A DNA stretch of 64,000 nt from assembly GCF_000954115.1 (NCBI RefSeq), contig NZ_CP010797.1:992001-1056000 (forward strand), given 5' to 3'. The stretch comes from Rhodococcus sp. B7740 (GTDB taxonomy: Bacteria > Actinomycetota > Actinomycetes > Mycobacteriales > Mycobacteriaceae). Made by a program: the position numbers and the translations under genes. Below the pieces are notes generated by a model, which did not search any database, was not told the origin of the DNA, and saw only the letters and a program-made list of their open reading frames with translations. This document shows, piece after piece, positions 6,289 through 17,293 of this stretch (its first letter is position 1; each line of letters begins with the position of its first letter).

Positions 6289-8465
6289 GTGGTCAGCAGC
6301 ACCAGCCGTCCGGTCGCGCGTGTCATAGCCACGTACGTGTCGACGGCACCCTCGACTCCTGTCCCGAAGGAATCCGGGTCGATCAGAACGACCAGATCGA
6401 ATTCGAGTCCCTTCGACAACTGCGGAGTCAGGGATCGGATTCGCTCCGACTCCGGAAATGCACGATTGCCTATGACGCAAGCGATTCCGGAGGGATTCGA
6501 GTCCAGCCATCGGTCGAGAATCGATGCCAGATCTGCCGTGTCTGCGTATTCGACGGGCACACCGGTGCTGCGGATGGAGACCGGAACATTGGCGTCCGGC
6601 AGCGCCGCGCGAATCACCGGCTCGGCCGCGGCCATGACTTCCCGCGGGGTGCGGTAATTGACACCGAGGGTGGCGATCCTCACCCGGTCGAGTCCGACCC
6701 GTCCGAGCCGTTCGACCCAGGACTCGGCGAACCCCTGCCGCGCTTGCGCCCGGTCTCCGACGATGGTGATGCTGCCCGACGGGCATCGTCGCAGGACCAT
6801 CTGCCACTGCGCGTCGGTCAACTCCTGCGCCTCGTCGACGACGATGTGTGCGAACGGCCCCGCCGAGGGATCCGTCGGGATCTCCTCGAAGCCCGCCGAA
6901 TCGACGAGTGCATCGCGAATTCCGTCCTGCCGCAACTGTGCAGCCATCATCTCGTCGTCGTCCGCGGCCATGAGTTCGTCGACCACGCGGTCCATTCGCG
7001 CACGCTCCGCAGCCGCGGCCAACTCGCGACGTCGAGTGCGGCGTGAATGCTCGGGATCTCCGAGCCGCATTCGTGCGGCGTCGAGCAGTGGCAGATCGGA
7101 CACCGTCCACCGCGTCGGATCGGGTCGCTGGAGTGAACGAATCTCCTCGGGGCCGAGCCAGGGTGCGCACCTACGGAGATACGCCGGAACGCTCCACAGA
7201 TCTGCGACGAGGTCGGCAGCGTCGATGATCGTCCAGGATCGTTCGAGCTCCGTGCGCAGAGGCTCATTGTTCTGCAACGACTTCCGTATCTCGGTTGGGT
7301 CCTCGTCACCGTCGTAGCGGTCGGCCAGAATCGTCAGTAGCAGGTCCCAGACCTGTTCGCGAGCCTCGTTGTGCGCAGTGCCGGGATCGGGTGCCTCGAA
7401 CGCCTCGGCCCAGTCGTCCGGCGTCAGCCTCAGGTCGGCCCACTCCGTCTCCACGATCATGTTCCGAGTCGGCGGCTGCTCGTAGAACGCAACGGCCGCC
7501 TCTATCGCCACGCTCATGTCGGCGGATGCCTTCAGTTGCGCGACAGCAGGATTCGGCTCTTCGACCACGTCCGTGCCTTCGGCGACGAGATCCCGGAGGG
7601 TGCAGGTCCGCACACCGTCCTCACCCAGACTCGGAAGGACGTCGGAGACGTAGGCGAGGTACGGCTCGTGTGGGCCGACGAACAGCACGCCGCCGCGGCT
7701 GTGTCCCAGACGCGATTCCGTGTACAGCAGATACGCGGTGCGATGGAGTGCGACCACGGTCTTCCCGGTTCCCGGGCCACCGTCGACGACCAGCGCGCCC
7801 CGGGCGTCCGCTCGAATGATGGCGTCCTGATCTGCTCGAACGGTGCCCAGCACGTCACGCATTCGCGGTGAACGTGCCGTACCCAGACTGGCGATGAAGG
7901 CAGACTGATCGTCGAGTGCAGCGTCGGTGATCGGTCCGGTCAGGTCGAACACCTCGTCCCAATAGTCGGTGATGGTGCCGTTCGTCCACCGATATCGTCG
8001 ACGACTCCGCAGCCCCATGGGATTGGCGTGAGTGGCACCGAAGAAGGGTTCGGCCGCGGGGGAGCGCCAGTCGACGAGGAGTTGTTCACCCGATGTCCCC
8101 AACAATCCGAGTCGTCCGATGTACACCGGCTCGTCCGTATCGGAGGCCACGACTCGACCCAGGCACAGATCCACCCCGTACCGACGAAGTGAACGGAGAC
8201 GTCCGCCCAACCTATGAATCTCGAAGTCCCGCTCCATCACCTCTCGGCCCATTCGGCCCGACGACTTCTGCGCGGCCGCGAGCTGCGCCGCGGTATCGGA
8301 TCGAGACTTCTCGATGCTCGAGCGTATCGCGGAGAAGTGTCGCTCGTCGTGGCCGATCAGCGCTGGATCACGTTTGCGTGCGAGGCTGTCGGGTAGGGCG
8401 AAAATGCTTGGGTGCACATGCTTCACAGGACTCCGATCGAATGGTTCTCGGTTGCAGCGAGCCAT
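6249..8465 (-). CDS. helR: HelR/HelD-type RNA polymerase recycling motor ATPase
   Basis: This 738-residue SF1 helicase-like protein has Walker A at GGPGTGKT (about residue 230), a DEAQ-type motif II in VVDEAQELTD, and the superfamily I motif GVNYRT. The N-terminal coiled-coil region (DERHFSAIRSSIEKS) and the conserved LLVDWRSPAAEPFF place it with HelD/HelR proteins, which bind RNA polymerase, pry out nucleic acid and, for HelR, displace rifamycins. The rifamycin-associated element 14 bp upstream of the start strongly supports the HelR assignment. ATG 8465 has AGGG six bases upstream; a GTG at codon 14 (preceded by GGAG) is an alternative start closer to the usual family N-terminus. The 3' end overlaps the convergent LysR gene. 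Confidence 0.9.
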   Translation of the reverse strand: MARCNREPFDRSPVKHVHPSIFALPDSLARKRDPALIGHDERHFSAIRSSIEKSRSDTAAQLAAAQKSSGRMGREVMERDFEIHRLGGRLRSLRRYGVDLCLGRVVASDTDEPVYIGRLGLLGTSGEQLLVDWRSPAAEPFFGATHANPMGLRSRRRYRWTNGTITDYWDEVFDLTGPITDAALDDQSAFIASLGTARSPRMRDVLGTVRADQDAIIRADARGALVVDGGPGTGKTVVALHRTAYLLYTESRLGHSRGGVLFVGPHEPYLAYVSDVLPSLGEDGVRTCTLRDLVAEGTDVVEEPNPAVAQLKASADMSVAIEAAVAFYEQPPTRNMIVETEWADLRLTPDDWAEAFEAPDPGTAHNEAREQVWDLLLTILADRYDGDEDPTEIRKSLQNNEPLRTELERSWTIIDAADLVADLWSVPAYLRRCAPWLGPEEIRSLQRPDPTRWTVSDLPLLDAARMRLGDPEHSRRTRRRELAAAAERARMDRVVDELMAADDDEMMAAQLRQDGIRDALVDSAGFEEIPTDPSAGPFAHIVVDEAQELTDAQWQMVLRRCPSGSITIVGDRAQARQGFAESWVERLGRVGLDRVRIATLGVNYRTPREVMAAAEPVIRAALPDANVPVSIRSTGVPVEYADTADLASILDRWLDSNPSGIACVIGNRAFPESERIRSLTPQLSKGLEFDLVVLIDPDSFGTGVEGAVDTYVAMTRATGRLVLLTTQREAAWRTSSTA

Positions 8466-8479
8466 TCTGAGCCCTGCAC

Positions 8480-8499
8480 GGGGTCTTGCCGCAAGCCCC
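8480..8499 (-). promoter_or_regulatory. Rifamycin-associated element (RAE) upstream of helR
   Basis: Read on the gene strand the site is GGGGCTTGCGGCAAGACCCC, a near-perfect inverted repeat (GGGGCTTGC / GCAAGACCCC with one unpaired position). This closely follows the published RAE consensus found upstream of rifamycin-inactivating genes and helR in actinomycetes. It ends 14 bp before the helR ATG, in the 95-bp gap after the GGDEF-EAL gene. On this basis helR is expected to be induced by rifamycins. Confidence 0.88.
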
Positions 8500-8560
8500 G
8501 GGGTGCGCTATATGTTGAAAGTGGAAAGACGTGATCGTCGCTTTCCGATTCCTCCGCGAT

Positions 8561-10756
8561 TCATCCGGCACCGAGAAGCAGATCGGCGATGGCACCGGCA
8601 CCGACCGGCCGGCCCAAGAGGTATCCCTGCGCGAAGTCGCAGCCGGTAGCGGCCAGTGCCTCCAGTTGCTCCTCGGTCTCGACGCCCTCGCCGACGACGG
8701 TGACGTCGAATGCGCGTGCCAGTGCCACGATGGCCGAGACGATCGCGCGAGCCCTGGGAGCGGGCAGCCGAGCTATGTACGACTTGTCGATCTTGAAGCA
8801 CTCGAACATGGGGTAGCGGTCGAGATACGACATGGAGCTGTGGCCTTTACCCATGTCGTCGAGCAGCAGAGCCACACCCATCGCGTGCAGGGCAGAGACG
8901 GTGTCGGCCACGCGCTCGGTGTCCGCGACCCACACGGTTTCGGTCACTTCGAGTCCGAGAGCGAAGGCAGGCAGTCCTGTCTCTGCGAGTATGGAAGCGA
9001 CCTCGTTGGGAAAGTCGGGATCGCGGAGTTGGAGCGCGCTGACGTTGACGCGAACCACGATGTCGGAGAACGTTCGCCACCGCGCCGCGGCCGTGCATGC
9101 GGTACGCAGCGCCCATGCGCCCAATGGTGTTGCAAGACCTGTTCTTTCGGCGACGCCGACGAACTCGCTCGGTTCGATGGGCCCGAGCTCATGGTGATTC
9201 CAGCGGGCGAGTGCCTCCACCGCGACGATTTTCCGCGACGCAATGTCCACCAACGGTTGGTACGCGAGAGTGAGCTCGTCGGCGCGCAGCGCCGCTCGCA
9301 GATCTATCGACAGTGACCTGATGCGATCCGCGTCGTAGAGATCGGTGGGATCGAAAACGGCATGCCCGCCGGTCCCACTGTCCTTCGCGCGGTACATGGC
9401 CAAGTCGGCGCGGTGGATCAGCTCGTGCCGAGTCGAATTCGGTTCGGACACCGCGATACCGATGCTGGCGCTCAAGGGAATGGGCACGTCCTCGGCGGAG
9501 AAGGGAACCGCGATGGAGCTCGTGATGTGTCGTGCGAGTTCCTCCGCATGAGCAACGCTGTCCACACCTTCGCAGACGATCAAGAATTCGTCGCCGCCCA
9601 GGCGCGCGATGGTGTCGGCGTCTCGGATCGCCGAGGCGAGCCGTTCGACGAACTTCACCAACGCCCTGTCTCCGGCGTCGTGTCCCAAGCTGTCGTTGAT
9701 GATCTTGAAGTCGTCGATGTCGAGCAGCAGCAGTGCCACGGTGCCGGACTGTTGTCTCGCGCGGTCCAGTGCCGAATCGATGACCTCGTACGCGAGGGTG
9801 CGGTTCGGCAGACCGGTCAGGGCGTCGTGGGTACTTCGTCGTCGCAGTTGGAGTTCGAGGTCGATGCGTCGTATCGCCGCGGATACGATCCCGGCCACCG
9901 AACTGAGGAACGACACTTCTTCGTCGCGGTAGAGACGGGCCTCGACGCTGTGGATCGAGAGAACTCCCCATGCTTTTCCGGCGGCGGTGAAGATGGGAAC
10001 TCCGACACCGCTGCGGAGGCCGAGCGAGATCATCGTGTCGGTCCGGAAGCGCTTCTCGGCGTGACTGTCGTTGCACACGACGGGCTCCGAGAGCGTCAGA
10101 GTGAATCCCACCAACGAACCGTCCCCGGACGGAACGTCCTGACGCATGCCGAGTGCACCGCTGGCCGCGTCCATGGTCAAGTACGGGTCGGTAGGGTGCT
10201 CGAGATGGGCGATGGCGGAGTTTCCCACGCCGATCAGTGTGGCGGCGGTGTCGGTTGCTGCAGTGAGCAATCTGGGTAGCTCGGCGATGACGGCGAATCG
10301 GCTCAGATCGGCCAGAGCCTTCTGCTCCTGAGCGTGACGACCGGCGATCACTGCATCGGCCGCGATCCTGGCATTGCGCTGCTCCACCGTGTGTCGGTGC
10401 CGAATGGTGGATACGACCACGTCGGGGCCGCCGTCGTCACGACCGATCACATAGGCAGACACCACCACCGGCATGCCTGTGCCGGTCACGTGATGGCGTA
10501 GCTCGCAGTATCCCTCCCATTTGCCTTCGGAGAGCAGACCGGCGGCGATGTCGTCGGTGAGATCGACTCCGTCTGAGGTGAGCAGTTCCAAGGCCGAGAG
10601 TTGGCCGATATCGGCCACGTCATCGAGTCCGATCAGGGTTGATCCTGCGGGATTGATGTACAGAATTCTCCCCGTGAAGTCGGACAGCGCAACGAAGTCC
10701 GGAGAACGTTCCAGGAAGGATCGAAGACTCACCGGATCGTCCGGGAGATCGAACAT
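8561..10756 (-). CDS. PAS-GAF-GGDEF-EAL cyclic-di-GMP synthase/phosphodiesterase
   Basis: This 731-residue protein has no membrane segment. A PAS domain (about residues 10-110, DFVALSDFTGRILYINPAG) and a GAF domain (about 150-300) precede GGDEF (RLGGDEF near 388) and EAL (VEALARW near 512). The GGDEF motif is intact. In the EAL domain the metal and catalytic residues appear retained (LEVTETVW, LLLDDMGKGHSS, FKIDKSY, VGEGVETEEQ), with DDMGKG instead of the usual DDFGTG. Both synthesis and hydrolysis of c-di-GMP are possible. It lies upstream of helR on the same strand, but the RAE suggests helR has its own promoter. Confidence 0.93.
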   Translation of the reverse strand: MFDLPDDPVSLRSFLERSPDFVALSDFTGRILYINPAGSTLIGLDDVADIGQLSALELLTSDGVDLTDDIAAGLLSEGKWEGYCELRHHVTGTGMPVVVSAYVIGRDDGGPDVVVSTIRHRHTVEQRNARIAADAVIAGRHAQEQKALADLSRFAVIAELPRLLTAATDTAATLIGVGNSAIAHLEHPTDPYLTMDAASGALGMRQDVPSGDGSLVGFTLTLSEPVVCNDSHAEKRFRTDTMISLGLRSGVGVPIFTAAGKAWGVLSIHSVEARLYRDEEVSFLSSVAGIVSAAIRRIDLELQLRRRSTHDALTGLPNRTLAYEVIDSALDRARQQSGTVALLLLDIDDFKIINDSLGHDAGDRALVKFVERLASAIRDADTIARLGGDEFLIVCEGVDSVAHAEELARHITSSIAVPFSAEDVPIPLSASIGIAVSEPNSTRHELIHRADLAMYRAKDSGTGGHAVFDPTDLYDADRIRSLSIDLRAALRADELTLAYQPLVDIASRKIVAVEALARWNHHELGPIEPSEFVGVAERTGLATPLGAWALRTACTAAARWRTFSDIVVRVNVSALQLRDPDFPNEVASILAETGLPAFALGLEVTETVWVADTERVADTVSALHAMGVALLLDDMGKGHSSMSYLDRYPMFECFKIDKSYIARLPAPRARAIVSAIVALARAFDVTVVGEGVETEEQLEALAATGCDFAQGYLLGRPVGAGAIADLLLGAG

Positions 10757-12410: not shown

Positions 12411-12477
12411 CCTATGAACAGTCACGGGGCAGCGTCTGCACTCGGTCCGGTTGCGACGACTGCTTAAGTCGCGTGTT

Positions 12478-13965
12478 CTAGGGTTCCGAGTTCTCGTGCA
12501 GAGTTGGGTAGGCGCTCCAGGCGGTGCCGATGGTGAGGGCGTGGCGTTCGGTCGTGCTGGGGTTGAAGCCGAACTGGTCGGCAACGATCGCTGGCGGGAT
12601 GCTGCGCAGGAGCTCGCGCATGGCACTGTTGCGTGCGCCTCGAAGGTCAATTCCGTTGTTGCGCAACAGTTTCATGAGGGTTTGCGGGTTGACGTGTTGA
12701 CCGGGTGCCCTGCCAGGAAACAGCCAGGGCGATGAGTGGTTGGCAGCGGTATTCATGTGCGGCCGCGCTCGGGTCAGGACTGTGATCGGTGTGGCGAGTG
12801 CTGCCGGGATCGCCACGGGGTCACCGGTGAAACCGATGCTGACCTGGCCGTCGTCGGTGACGGCGATTGCATCGAGGGGGAGTGCGGCAATGCGAGTGAC
12901 CGGCTGCGCACAGATCAGGAGGAGGACGGTCGCGGCCTGGACCCAAGTCGGGGTGTCGGAGCTGCGGAGGGTCTCGGCGAGTTGGGCGTAGCGGTGTTCG
13001 TCGCTGGTGACGGGCGTCTGGCGGGGTTGACGGTGGGGAAAGTTCAGTTCGGGGTGCATGTGTTGCTGGCGGGTGCACCATCTGACGAACATCATGGCGG
13101 TGCTGCGGGTGGTCGGTCCGGTGGCGATCCAGGTGTCGATGTCGGTCTGGGTTGCGGATCTGAGGTCGACGTTGTGCTCGTAGAGCCAGTTGACGAAGGC
13201 GATGGCGACGGTGATCTCTTGCTTGGCGCTGCGCACGGGGCCTTCGGGTAGTGGTCCGTGTTCGGCGCGGGATCGGAGTTTGCGCAGGTGATTCCACGTC
13301 GCGAAGCCGGTGATCACGTCTCGGGCGTGGTGGATCGCGGTGGTGTCGAGTGTGGTGTCGAGCCAGCTGGTGAAGCGGTCCAGGTTGCGGTCGTAAGCGG
13401 GCAGTATGCCGCAGCCGACAAACAAATCTCGGAGGTGGCGAGCGGTGCGCGGGGAGGCGTGGTCGGTGAAGGTGGTGTGCGCGATGGGGTAGCGGCGGGC
13501 GGCGATGCCGGTGAGTAGCTCGAGCACGTCGGGGTTGCGCAGCCAGATGATGGCGCTGCGCGGATTCTCCTGACTGGTCAGCACTTCGAGCAGCGGGAGT
13601 AGTTCGGGGGTGATGTCATCGGCACCCGGTGCGGTGAACAGGGTTGTGAGGTCGTCGGTGAGGCAGCAGCGGGCGCAGAGCCCGTAGCGGTGCGGTTCGT
13701 CCTGGTCGCCGCAGCGGGTGCAGGTCAGACGAGGGTCGTCGATGCCGGCGCAGTCGGTGCAGACCGGCTCGGCTTTCGCATTGCGTCCGGGAAGCAGTTT
13801 GTTCGGCAGGGCGCAGTCGGGACAGGTGCCGCGGCAGCGGGTGGCGTGTTGGTAGCAGCGTCGGCAGACGAAGCCCTCGGGCCAGCGGACTCCTCGACGT
13901 TGGCCAGTTCCGCCGCACCTGACGCAGAGATATTGCGGCGCAGGGGATTTGATCACTGTGATCAT
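12478..13965 (-). CDS. Zinc-ribbon protein with degenerate tyrosine-recombinase-like domain
   Basis: This 495-residue protein starts at ATG 13965; the open frame continues upstream but the region overlaps the HTH gene. Residues about 15-110 carry a row of Cys pairs (CVRCGG, CRRCYQ, CPDCAL, CTDCAG, CTRCGD, CARCC) suggesting zinc ribbons. The rest has the helical layout of an integrase: an N-terminal SAM-like DNA-binding part (TGFATWNHLRKLRSRAEHGPL) and a C-terminal core with CAQPVTRIAALPLD (catalytic Arg region) and GARNSAMRELLR where HxxR would be expected. The canonical His of HxxR and a clear tyrosine motif are missing, so it is probably a non-catalytic partner of the adjacent recombinase. 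Confidence 0.7.
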   Translation of the reverse strand: MITVIKSPAPQYLCVRCGGTGQRRGVRWPEGFVCRRCYQHATRCRGTCPDCALPNKLLPGRNAKAEPVCTDCAGIDDPRLTCTRCGDQDEPHRYGLCARCCLTDDLTTLFTAPGADDITPELLPLLEVLTSQENPRSAIIWLRNPDVLELLTGIAARRYPIAHTTFTDHASPRTARHLRDLFVGCGILPAYDRNLDRFTSWLDTTLDTTAIHHARDVITGFATWNHLRKLRSRAEHGPLPEGPVRSAKQEITVAIAFVNWLYEHNVDLRSATQTDIDTWIATGPTTRSTAMMFVRWCTRQQHMHPELNFPHRQPRQTPVTSDEHRYAQLAETLRSSDTPTWVQAATVLLLICAQPVTRIAALPLDAIAVTDDGQVSIGFTGDPVAIPAALATPITVLTRARPHMNTAANHSSPWLFPGRAPGQHVNPQTLMKLLRNNGIDLRGARNSAMRELLRSIPPAIVADQFGFNPSTTERHALTIGTAWSAYPTLHENSEP

Positions 13966-13997
13966 GCACGATTCCTTCGCGTGACAGCGGCGGGCTT

Positions 13998-14345
13998 CTA
14001 CTGAGGTGGGCCGGGTCGGTGGATGCGGGCGCGTGTGGGCCGCACCATGGGATCGGGAACCGCGGCGATTGCTGGGCCGCGTGCGCCGGCGGTCCGGCGC
14101 GACGGGGTGGCGTCGACGCGGAAGTCGCAGAGGTCTTCGGTGGAGCAGTCGAGGACGTGGCACAGGGCACCGAGCAGCGCCAATGGCAACCTGTCCGGGG
14201 TGTTTCCCAGGAGGCGGTAGAGCTGAGAGGCGGACAGTTCGATTCCGATGTCGTGCAGTGGTGTCATCAGATCGGAGATGTTGTTCATCCCGCGGGCGGC
14301 CATGATTTCTCTCAAACGCCATTGGTATCCGATGCGGTACTGCAT
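13998..14345 (-). CDS. Cro/C1-type helix-turn-helix protein
   Basis: This protein has 115 residues. An HTH of the XRE type spans about residues 8-75 (GYQWRLREIMAARGM, then IELSASQLYRLL and LALLGALCHVLDCSTEDL), with a basic, proline-rich tail. The start at ATG 14345 lies 2 nt after the recombinase stop, so the two are translated from one message. In such cassettes the small HTH protein usually controls recombinase expression or directionality; here that is inferred from position. A dyad at 15537-15551 upstream of the first gene is a possible operator. Confidence 0.82.
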   Translation of the reverse strand: MQYRIGYQWRLREIMAARGMNNISDLMTPLHDIGIELSASQLYRLLGNTPDRLPLALLGALCHVLDCSTEDLCDFRVDATPSRRTAGARGPAIAAVPDPMVRPTRARIHRPGPPQ

Positions 14346-14347
14346 GG

Positions 14348-15496
14348 CTATGGTCCCTTCTGCTGGTTCGTCGTCGTGCTGTTCGCAGCTGTGAGTCGGT
14401 CCGCGGCGGCCGCCAGAGCCGAGGCGACCACGCGGGTGCGGTAGTCGGGGGAGACGAACGTGTAGATCGACGTGGTGGACGCATGCTCGTGGCCGACCTG
14501 CTCTTGGATGAACCGAGTGTCGTAACCGGATTCGACGAGCATGCTCACGTAGGACCGTCGCAGCGAGTGAAAGTCCAGTCCCGGATCGGTAAGTCCTGCT
14601 TGGTCACATAGTGCGGCGAAGCTGGTCGAGACGGCCCCGGCGCTGATGCGATCGGACCGTTCGGTGGGAAACAGCGCTGCGCTGTTGCGTCCGAAGACGG
14701 GACGGGCGTGCTCGATCCACTGTTCGAGGCAGTCGATCACCCAGGCAGTTTCCGGAACGGTGAGCACCCCGCGCCGCTTGGGCGGCGATCCTTTGCTGGG
14801 TTTGCCGTAGCGGACGTAGCAGACACCGAACTGGCCGAACTGCGGCGCGCGTGGATTCGGTCCGAAGTCCGACAGATCTAACATACGAGTTTCGTTGCGG
14901 CGCAAACCCCATGCGTAGGCGACCTTGGTGATGGTCGCGGTCCGGAAGGCGACCATCGGGCCCTTGACACCGGCGTCCCGGCGCCGGTCCACCTGATCGT
15001 CGGCGGTGTCGCACAGGTCTTGCAATTCGTCGACGGTGTAGGCGCGTTTGCGGGGATCACTGGCGCCTTCCTGAACATGGTGAGCGGAGTTCGACTCGAA
15101 GATGACCTGGATTGGATGAGTACCGAACCGGTTCTCGCACTGAGTAATCCATCCGTACGCAGGATCGGTCAGGTATGCCATGAATTGCCGGATCGCGCCC
15201 TGATACCCCAGTACAGTGCTGTGTGCGGCGCCATCGATTCCGCGGAGTTCGGCCGCCCAATCGTCGGCCTGCGACGCAGTCCACACCCATGGCCCTTCCG
15301 CATCACAAAAGCTGTGAAACCGTCGAATGACCGAGACTCGACTCGCGATGGTGCCCGGGGAGAGGTTGCGCGCCAACTGTTGACGCGACCAACCCGTCAT
15401 CATCGCTTCGAACACCGCCTCTGCAGGCCGTAGTACAGCGACCCCATCGGCCAACTGCAACTGCGCCGCACCAGGCGGCAACTCACTACGTCTCAT
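14348..15496 (-). CDS. Tyrosine recombinase/integrase
   Basis: This 382-residue site-specific recombinase has an N-terminal SAM-like core-binding domain (RNLSPGTIASRVSVIRRF) and a complete catalytic set: Arg in WGLRRNETRML, Lys in RYGKPSKG, His-x-x-Arg in FHSLRRSYV, His in QVGHEHAS and the nucleophile Tyr in TSIYTFV. It is longer than chromosomal XerC/XerD (about 300 residues) and has an extended N-terminus, as in integrases of mobile elements. It is the first gene of the cassette, and its start lies about 265 bp from a dif-like site. Whether that site, or another one in the gap, is its substrate cannot be told from the sequence. Confidence 0.93.
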   Translation of the reverse strand: MRRSELPPGAAQLQLADGVAVLRPAEAVFEAMMTGWSRQQLARNLSPGTIASRVSVIRRFHSFCDAEGPWVWTASQADDWAAELRGIDGAAHSTVLGYQGAIRQFMAYLTDPAYGWITQCENRFGTHPIQVIFESNSAHHVQEGASDPRKRAYTVDELQDLCDTADDQVDRRRDAGVKGPMVAFRTATITKVAYAWGLRRNETRMLDLSDFGPNPRAPQFGQFGVCYVRYGKPSKGSPPKRRGVLTVPETAWVIDCLEQWIEHARPVFGRNSAALFPTERSDRISAGAVSTSFAALCDQAGLTDPGLDFHSLRRSYVSMLVESGYDTRFIQEQVGHEHASTTSIYTFVSPDYRTRVVASALAAAADRLTAANSTTTNQQKGP

Positions 15497-15536
15497 CAGA
15501 CCCCCCAGCCCGTCGTTCGCAATCTACGCGAAAGTC

Positions 15537-15551
15537 TCGCATATAGTGCGA
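15537..15551. promoter_or_regulatory. Dyad upstream of the tyrosine recombinase
   Basis: TCGCA-TATAG-TGCGA is a perfect inverted repeat with five-base arms, 40 bp upstream of the recombinase start codon. The AT-rich centre could overlap a -10 region. It is a reasonable operator for the HTH protein of the cassette, which is an inference from position. Confidence 0.4.
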
Positions 15552-15761
15552 ATAAGTGTACGTAGTAGCAGGTCACACCACATGCGGCTCGAACGGCTTC
15601 GACGCCGAATCGCATCAGCGACATCACCAGATTCGATTCGAGTCTCCGCTAGGATCGACCGATGCAGGTCATGGCCAGGTGCGCCATGACTGCAGTACTT
15701 ACTTCGGTGGCCTCGTCGGGGAGCCGTCCGAGTTCGCATTTTCTGCGACTCGCGAGAGATT

Positions 15762-15789
15762 ACTTGACATAATGTTGATTATCGGCAAA
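15762..15789 (-). other. dif-like XerCD recombination site
   Basis: On the minus strand this 28-bp site reads as an 11-bp arm TTTGCCGATAA, a 6-bp centre TCAACA and an 11-bp arm TTATGTCAAGT. This is the standard dif layout, and the right arm is very close to the E. coli XerD arm TTATGTTAAAT, while the left arm has the expected inner ATAA. The inner parts of the arms form the inverted repeat ATAAT/ATTAT. I infer a chromosome-dimer resolution site in or near the replication terminus. A dif-like attachment site of an integrated element is the alternative. Confidence 0.82.
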
Positions 15790-16052: not shown

Positions 16053-16210
16053 TGGGGTGATGCGGCGGGAGTTGGAATCTTCTCAGTGCGACGGTGATCA
16101 TGTCGAAAACGGTCATTTCGATCGGTATCGGCTGATTCCGTGGTCGAAGCGCACGTTTCTGCTACTGTCCGTGAAATTGCTCGGTGCAGATACCAGCCGA
16201 AGGTCACCCG

Positions 16211-17293
16211 ATGTTCGCCGTTCGTCCGTTCATCTCGGCCTCGGGTCGACGTGTGTCGTCGCAACAGCGCGCGGACAGTTCGGTGGCGGGGCTGTTGGAT
16301 CTGGACGCGACTCGAACTCGCGTCATTCGATTACTCGTCGGCTCGGGGACGTTGTCGATCGGTCTCATCGGTTTACTGAGCGCACCGTCCGAGGAATACA
16401 GCGGTTGGCGAGTACATGCGGTGGTAGCAATCAGCCTGACCGCGTTTCCGGTCGCGTTGCGTTGGTTCTTCGGTCGATGGCCGGGACCGCGTCTGCTGAC
16501 TGCATTCATCGTGTATTCGGATGTATCGATCGCCGCCGGTCTGTTGTTGAAGGACACGACAATGACTGCGATCGGCGGCACGGTACTCTTCGCCGTCATC
16601 ACCACTCTGGCTGTGGTGGCGGTGCCGCTACTCCCCTGTCTCGTGCACATCGTTTTCGCCACAGTGATCCTTGCGGTGGTGGCCGCACTCACCGTGCACG
16701 CGGACGTCGCCAGCGGCTGGGTCGTTGCCGCACACAGTATGACCATGCTGTTGATGTTCGCGTCTCCGCTCATTCTGATGGTGTACGTGAGCGAGCTCAG
16801 ATCTCGGGCACGGGAGTCGCTGGTGGACCCGCTGACCGGCCTGCACAACCGTCGCGGGCTGTTCGCTGCAGTAGCTGCCACCGCGATGACGACACCGGAT
16901 GTGGAACCGAAGGTGATATGCGCCGTCGCCGCCGATGTCGACGGGATGAAGGGTGTCAACGACAGCTACGGACATCACACCGGCGACGCGGTTCTCGTCG
17001 ATGTGGCCCAGCACATGCGAGCGCTGGCGGCCAACCGCTGGATCGTCGCACGACTGGGCGGTGACGAGTTCGCGTGCATCGCCGTCGGGCGACCTGCCGA
17101 CCTCACCGACCGAACTGCAGAGCTCGTGGAGCGCCTCGGACGGGCCCGGATGTTGTCCGGACTCACCGTCAGTGTCGGGTCGGCAGTGGTACCAGTCGAC
17201 GCGGACAGTGATGTGCGGCAGTCCGCGCACGACGTACTCCGCATCGCGGACTCGGAGATGTATCGAGCGAAACGCAGTCGCTGGCCGGCGTGA
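16211..17293 (+). CDS. Membrane-anchored GGDEF diguanylate cyclase
   Basis: This protein has 360 residues from ATG 16211; a non-ATG start nine codons upstream is possible. A membrane region of about six helices occupies residues 40-200 (LLVGSGTLSIGLIGLL, VLFAVITTLAVVAVPLL, MTMLLMFASPLILMVYV). A cytoplasmic GGDEF domain follows (about 210-360) with DPLTGLHNRRGLF and an intact RLGGDEF motif. No I-site RxxD is evident directly upstream of GGDEF (ANRWIVARLGG), so product inhibition may be absent. It is the second c-di-GMP enzyme in the window, 5.5 kb from the PAS-GAF-GGDEF-EAL protein, and stands alone between a dif-containing gap and convergent genes. Confidence 0.92.
   Translation: MFAVRPFISASGRRVSSQQRADSSVAGLLDLDATRTRVIRLLVGSGTLSIGLIGLLSAPSEEYSGWRVHAVVAISLTAFPVALRWFFGRWPGPRLLTAFIVYSDVSIAAGLLLKDTTMTAIGGTVLFAVITTLAVVAVPLLPCLVHIVFATVILAVVAALTVHADVASGWVVAAHSMTMLLMFASPLILMVYVSELRSRARESLVDPLTGLHNRRGLFAAVAATAMTTPDVEPKVICAVAADVDGMKGVNDSYGHHTGDAVLVDVAQHMRALAANRWIVARLGGDEFACIAVGRPADLTDRTAELVERLGRARMLSGLTVSVGSAVVPVDADSDVRQSAHDVLRIADSEMYRAKRSRWPA

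Follow-up and report, generated by a model that had tools for sequence, protein, structure and literature searches.

The window analysed here comprises 64,000 nucleotides, positions 992,001-1,056,000 of the single 5,341,557-base contig of its genome (G000; the other G labels denote comparison genomes). Within it lies a 28-bp site with conserved arms and 11-6-11 spacing, whose minus strand reads TTTGCCGATAA-TCAACA-TTATGTCAAGT. On one side of this site, which is the side of the XerD arm, three genes are transcribed away from it, encoding a tyrosine recombinase (Int), a small helix-turn-helix (HTH) protein and p497, the "partner protein" of this trio. With their flanking ends, these genes form an element of 3.3 kb (window positions of about 12462-15755), plus a 6-nt junction (Table 1). 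The integrase gene starts at 15496, leaving 265 bp to the nearer edge of the 28-bp site, as first noted in a preliminary description of this DNA. At the other end of the element, about 75 bp separate the end of the p497 gene from the next gene, which encodes a GNAT acetyltransferase.

Table 1. The dif site and the adjoining element, in window positions.
Feature	Position	Strand	Remark
dif, chromosome dimer resolution site	15762..15789	-	From pattern match, conservation and GC skew
XerC arm	15779-15789	-	
dif centre	15773-15778	-	
XerD arm	15762-15772	-	
Six variable bases, AATCTC, from XerD arm to element	15756..15761	-	Proposed overlap in the core site of the integrase
Element left end, conserved	15722..15755	-	Clade B type, TCGCGAGTCGCAGAAAATGCGAACTCG...
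Pre-integrase region	15496..15565	-	TTCGCA/TGCGAA boxes resembling the left-end box
Tyrosine recombinase	14348..15496	-	382 aa
HTH protein (Cro/C1-type, HTH_26)	13998..14345	-	115 aa
p497	12478..13965	-	495 aa from its ATG
Element right end	12455..12477	-	AACACGCGACTTAAGC + AGTCGT; exact to about 8-10 nt

The recombinase matches Pfam Phage_integrase with E = 4e-21 and possesses what we take to be the complete catalytic set R-K-H-R-H-Y (R199, K232, H310, R313, H336 and Y345). These residues are invariant in an alignment of 17 sequences. The top XerD match of the genome is found at 885 kb and exceeds the family cut-off, and the next best match, at 1,511 kb, is probably XerC; the recombinase considered here is therefore not one of the host Xer pair. 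Its partner p497 gave no match in Pfam or NCBIfam. An alignment of 28 sequences shows ten invariant cysteines arranged in CxxC pairs, and the N-terminus resembles a zinc finger. An AlphaFold2 model of p497 (pLDDT 89, pTM 0.64) finds its best solved matches in Cre, XerA and lambda Int, with E values of 4e-7 to 4e-6 and TM-scores by query length of 0.27-0.36, and the model thus suggests a degenerate tyrosine-recombinase fold. By our reading of the alignments, p497 has neither the canonical Tyr nor the HxxR histidine. An invariant Tyr486 is present further on and may be a candidate stand-in for the lost canonical Tyr. The TTCGCA/TGCGAA boxes, located in the left end and before int, are possible sites for the HTH protein or for Int, of the regulator or the arm type.

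This gene content recurs. Among 55 integrase loci compared in this study, an HTH match was present near all 55 and a p497 match near 52 (the tblastn query for p497 included one codon before the ATG), and the order int-HTH-p497 was seen in all inspected loci that hold all three genes. On a Herbiconiux plasmid (L129), genes for an ArsR-type regulator and a cation transporter are located directly behind the trio, at 7934-8961, and these are possibly cargo.

The 28-bp site itself was evaluated in several ways. It is identical at 19 of 28 positions to the E. coli dif sequence; the runner-up within the 64-kb window matches at 17 of 28. Its arms agree with those of the dif suggested for Frankia alni, CACGCCGATAATGCACATTATGTCAAGT (PMC3025954). 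A search of the 5,341,557-base genome with a dif pattern, permitting up to 2 mismatches, returned a single match, which is positions 15762-15789 of the window with 0 mismatches; the control, in which the pattern was read backwards, also returned 1 match within 2 mismatches, and a stricter pattern gave 0 control matches across the 37 genomes of the genus. An arm score of at least 16 out of 22 was reached at only 1 of 798,920 background positions in the G000 genome. The site is present in all 37 genus genomes that were searched, including those in which no trio adjoins it. The preliminary description had called for a comparison of related strains with and without the cassette, and in strains lacking it, for example G021, the site is conserved. 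The dif-like site of 11-6-11 spacing that it had reported is confirmed, and this is very probably the chromosomal dif of G000.

The position of dif on the chromosome leads to the same point. dif is at 1.008 Mb and dnaA at 3,780,188, so that they are separated by 2.77 and 2.57 Mb along the two arms, and dif is displaced by 1.9% of the genome from the exact point opposite dnaA. GC skew was determined in 20 samples of 20 kb. Of the 10 samples on the arm that runs from dnaA to 1.00 Mb, 9 had positive skew, and of the 10 on the arm from 1.03 Mb to dnaA, 9 had negative skew, the exceptions being the samples at 4.8 and 2.0 Mb; values were near zero at 1.07, 1.17 and 3.70 Mb, and the 1.03-Mb sample falls largely inside one giant gene. 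The sign switches between the samples at 0.98-1.00 and 1.03-1.05 Mb, that is, across dif. This switch at the site, approximately opposite dnaA, supports the earlier proposal that dif marks the chromosome terminus. Other features of the vicinity may be mentioned. About 9 kb from dif, one ORF of 8,921 aa (24613-51378, minus strand) contains repeated modules of the condensation, adenylation and carrier types and appears by eye to encode a giant non-ribosomal peptide synthetase. Two cyclic-di-GMP genes flank the dif region (8561-10756 and 16184-17293); they encode one PAS/GAF/GGDEF/EAL protein and one GGDEF protein.

Relatives of the integrase are found repeatedly next to dif. Of 22 integrase places in the genus, 4 are at most 600 bp from the dif of their own genome, on the same side and in the same orientation, an arrangement for which uniform chance in a 5.4-Mb genome is 1.8e-11. 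Measured from the start of dif, these integrase matches are located at +293 (G000), +519 (G007), +297 (G036) and +294 (G033), and a remnant of an integrase is present at +334 in G030. All five are on the XerD side and in one orientation. The dif-side integrases of G036 and G033 are only 46% and 41% identical, respectively, to that of G000. For the 55 loci, we defined as dif-like a site with an arm score of at least 16 out of 22, no more than 700 bp upstream of the integrase. These loci omit three partial places among the 22 of the genus (G007:C5, G030:C65 and G014) and three of 43 in the family (G250, G285 and G067), and 4 of them are plasmid records chosen from the 193 in which relatives were found; L182 and L183 have no integrase match. 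A dif-like site was present upstream at 23 of the 55 loci, with 0.09 expected by chance. The remaining 32 have arm scores of 11-15, so that dif targeting is confined to some clades; counted as non-dif-like are the near-identical G186a, G277C45 and pGRS1 (13/22) as well as G033C43 (12/22), in all four of which an XerD arm is recognisable by eye.

A comparable result was obtained with named genomes, where 18 of the best 80 of 421 relatives score at least 16/22. Four of these loci are already among the 55 and 14 are new, from Sinomonas, Microbacterium, Arthrobacter, Micrococcus, Subtercola, a Microbacteriaceae and two metagenome-assembled genomes. The dif-like site on the integrase side is the only one within 2 mismatches in G063, G072, G077 and G146 and the only good one in G090. 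One trio of G186 adjoins the apparent main dif. In G173, G191, G238, G252, G255 and G279 the integrase-side site is one of two or more.

Inspection of the junctions reveals a simple rule. In a midpoint-rooted tree of the integrases, in which G033C29 forms a long branch, the dif-proximal members fall in clade A (12 of 13 rows), clade B (8 of 11, the other 3 carrying a degenerate dif-like site) and clade C (all 3 rows), with no such member in a clade of 26 or in a pair. The order at the junction is a dif arm, six variable bases and then a clade-specific element end. Two clades join outside the XerD arm and one, clade C, outside the XerC arm. The left end is CTGCATATTGCATCAGATGAATCA in clade A and TNGCGAGTCGCAG....TGCGAACTCG in clade B; at the new loci from named genomes it is mostly TGRCATGTTCGCATC..ATGCGAA, and in clade C the XerC arm and six bases are followed by TGACGAATTTCATC.

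The variability of the six bases was examined in 118 non-independent pairs of junctions, selected because their element ends are similar. Identity at the successive positions was 0.41, 0.37, 0.76, 0.31, 0.46 and 0.36, with a mean of 0.445 (0.467 when 5 wholly identical pairs are restored); the mean for 685 pairs of unlike ends was 0.349. In the same 118 pairs, the inner five positions of the arm are identical at a frequency of at least 0.93 and the outer six at 0.41-0.86, and the element positions reach 0.48-1.00, values that are high by selection. All six bases agree in 2 of the 118 pairs, or in 7 of 123 if the wholly identical ones are counted. This full agreement in some pairs, together with the bias at position 3 (0.76), indicates some constraint on the six bases. 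In 8 of the 37 genus genomes, the 24 nt found at offset 6 from dif agree with an element left end at a value of at least 0.79, in comparison with a null distribution whose 99.9% point is 0.62 and whose maximum is 0.67. In G011 and G030 the match is at offset 7 rather than 6; the end type of G033, a carrier, fits offset 6 weakly, and G009 and G022 are borderline cases. Counting elements, remnants and element ends together, 11 of the 37 dif sites have one adjoining. In G004, G006, G010 and G025 (L065, L067, L070 and L085), a clade A left end is present at offset 6 with no integrase match, probably as the relic of an old insertion.

Several genomes provide natural experiments. In G007 there are three junctions with three different dif-like 28-mers, and behind each of them an identical stretch of 147 bp begins at the second base (contig C15 stops where the other two copies part). 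In G186 the converse is seen. A block of 9,093 bp is duplicated there with 99.97% identity and ends in the same dif-like site, which is followed by a clade A end in one copy and by a clade B end in the other, the copies diverging two bases past the XerD arm. In G023 a single dif-like site has a clade C element on its XerC side and, on its XerD side, a clade A type end after six bases. Finally, G021 presents an empty site, in which dif is followed 56 bp on by the GNAT gene; its right flank corresponds, with a precision of about 8-10 nt, to the DNA past the right end of the element in G000. Other species of the genus carry different ORFs in the interval from dif to the GNAT gene (L074, L086, L069, L082 and L075), including in 4 of these 5 an SDR oxidoreductase, as judged by eye; the DNA on the XerD side of dif thus varies within the genus. 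As for the repeated segment of G186, this 3.6-Mb genome has two full copies of it and a partial third one (L187-L191, G186:C1:340001-440000), and the segment shares more than 99% identity with regions of both a Gordonia plasmid and a contig of a different genus, which points to recent transfer between genera. No clean island bounds were found for the block common to G186, G277 and the Gordonia plasmid pGRS1, where other mobile elements are intermixed.

The right ends are less uniform. In the tandem arrays of G007 and G186, dif-like sites bound related elements, and arms of the form TTATGAC(A/G)AGT occur at internal array junctions in G007, G186 and G238, suggesting that elements also bear an XerD-like arm at their right end. 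No clear arm of this kind is present at the right end in G000. The preliminary description had recommended looking for another dif-like copy beyond the cassette; the G000 genome contains none within 2 mismatches, and the best match up to 6 kb downstream of dif is 16/28, compared with up to 17 elsewhere in the window. Universal inverted terminal repeats were not found among the compared elements. When pairs from clades A and C were compared, divergence began at or just past the end of p497; even close elements share no conserved sequence behind p497, which leaves the right ends of these two clades undefined.

As a whole, we consider it likely, with a probability of roughly 0.8, that this is an integrative element that targets a dif arm, docked at the XerD arm of a genuine dif, and that its own integrase treats this arm as half of a core site. 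The identity of dif, the recurrence at dif and dif-like sites, the 6-nt spacing, the clade-specific side and the gene content are observed directly in the sequences. The core site of a tyrosine recombinase consists of an arm, an overlap of 6-8 bp and a second arm. In the simplest reading, which relies on comparison of the loci, Int would perform the reaction and would take the XerD arm (in clade C, the XerC arm) as one half-site, the other being the element's own end, and crossover would occur within the six bases just outside dif, which would then serve as a 6-bp overlap. Since the crossover would be outside dif, dif would be left whole for XerCD. The element would gain a target that is present on every chromosome searched in the genus, and as dif-like copies on other replicons. 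As a recombinase fold without the canonical nucleophile, p497 would probably act as a DNA-binding partner and the HTH protein probably as a regulator, and the elements may be mobile at present. The preliminary description had suggested that the cassette either inserted beside dif, perhaps exploiting Xer recombination, or acts on this site itself. Insertion beside dif and action on this site are both favored, the most likely course being insertion that uses one dif arm. The exploitation of Xer recombination finds no support and appears unlikely, because the element has its own complete recombinase and its junction is 6 nt outside dif.

Three other explanations may be considered. The one that survives best, although it is improbable, is that XerCD brought the element in through strand exchange at the centre of dif, the recombinase having another job. 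This is the mode of IMEX such as CTXphi, VGJphi, TLCphi, GGI and LME-1, which use the host Xer recombinases for exchange within dif, GGI and LME-1 leaving a wild-type dif at one end (PMC5357621, PMC9765430). The elements of Actinomycetota resemble IMEX in that the dif region is the target, and the dif-like sites that bound related elements in the G007 and G186 arrays are reminiscent of the attP mimics of IMEX. However, the junction is 6 nt outside the XerD arm and not in the centre of dif, one clade is found on the XerC side, no second dif-like site was found in G000 and the element bears a complete recombinase.

A slightly poorer case can be made for the dif-like site being a resolution site of the element or of a plasmid, read by its own recombinase, with the chromosomal dif a captured copy. 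Consistent with this explanation, several dif-like sites beside trios are not the main dif and are on other contigs or islands, and XerD-like arms occur at internal array junctions. The presence of dif in 37 of 37 genus genomes, including those with no adjoining trio, argues against it, and so do the natural experiments: one element end is joined to different sites in G007 and different ends are joined to one site in G186, and the comparisons with G186 and G021 also disfavor capture. Least probable is a domesticated recombinase retained at dif for a host function, for instance as an accessory factor in dimer resolution, since its intact catalytic residues and its constant place and orientation in several genera must be set against its presence beside dif in only 4 of 37 genus genomes, plus a remnant, the mere 41-46% identity to the G000 integrase of the members at the dif of G033 and G036, the left ends without an integrase at the dif of other genomes and the relatives in 193 plasmid records.

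The closest known counterparts of the element are the Tn554/SE/GInt-like elements. SEs, GInts and Tn554-related elements are small, target-specific elements with tyrosine recombinases, a multi-gene operon at one end and a 6-bp footprint sequence at the junction, and SEs and GInts have a partner without the RHRY motif (PMC10214605). The dif-side element is similar in the 6-bp variable sequence at its left junction and, as in SEs and GInts, in its degenerate partner, p497. It differs in having a single catalytic recombinase, accompanied by an HTH protein and a degenerate, Cys-rich recombinase, in targeting a dif arm and in inhabiting Actinomycetota. The Tn554/SE/GInt type has two catalytic tyrosine recombinases in its operon, and p497 is, by our reading, without the canonical Tyr and H; RIT elements have three catalytic tyrosine recombinases, a number that the dif-side element does not possess. 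IMEX have no recombinase of their own and are flanked by two dif-like sites; the tyrosine recombinase of the G000 element is complete and joining is outside dif, and two such flanking sites are absent from G000, although arrays in relatives do show them. The nearest precedent that we found is that of Vibrio tailless prophages, which sit at dif and regularly carry integrase genes, the authors leaving open which recombinase acts (PMC11630473). Unlike the Actinomycetota elements these are phages, and the available text of that report describes no 6-nt offset rule or choice of arm. Among the open-licence literature matches listed, there was no report of elements that dock beside dif in Actinomycetota with their own integrase. 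On balance, we lean toward the view that these are a previously undescribed class of Actinomycetota mobile elements, which would form a hybrid core site from one dif arm (XerD or XerC, according to clade) with a 6-bp overlap outside dif, dock without XerCD, leave dif unbroken, accumulate there as arrays and travel on plasmids bearing dif-like sites.

These results have several implications. Docking at dif has been known for elements that borrow XerCD. Elements of Actinomycetota appear to reach the same conserved dif with a recombinase of their own, by reading one arm, and dif would thus be a safe harbour comparable to tRNA genes in many genera of one phylum. The clades that read opposite arms would offer a natural series for the study of how DNA specificity switches in tyrosine recombinases, and the junction rule makes dif-arm elements easy to find. 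For recombinases that adjoin dif, position alone is insufficient for annotation as XerC or XerD. The finding also raises the question of whether dif-arm elements disturb or exploit XerCD and FtsK.
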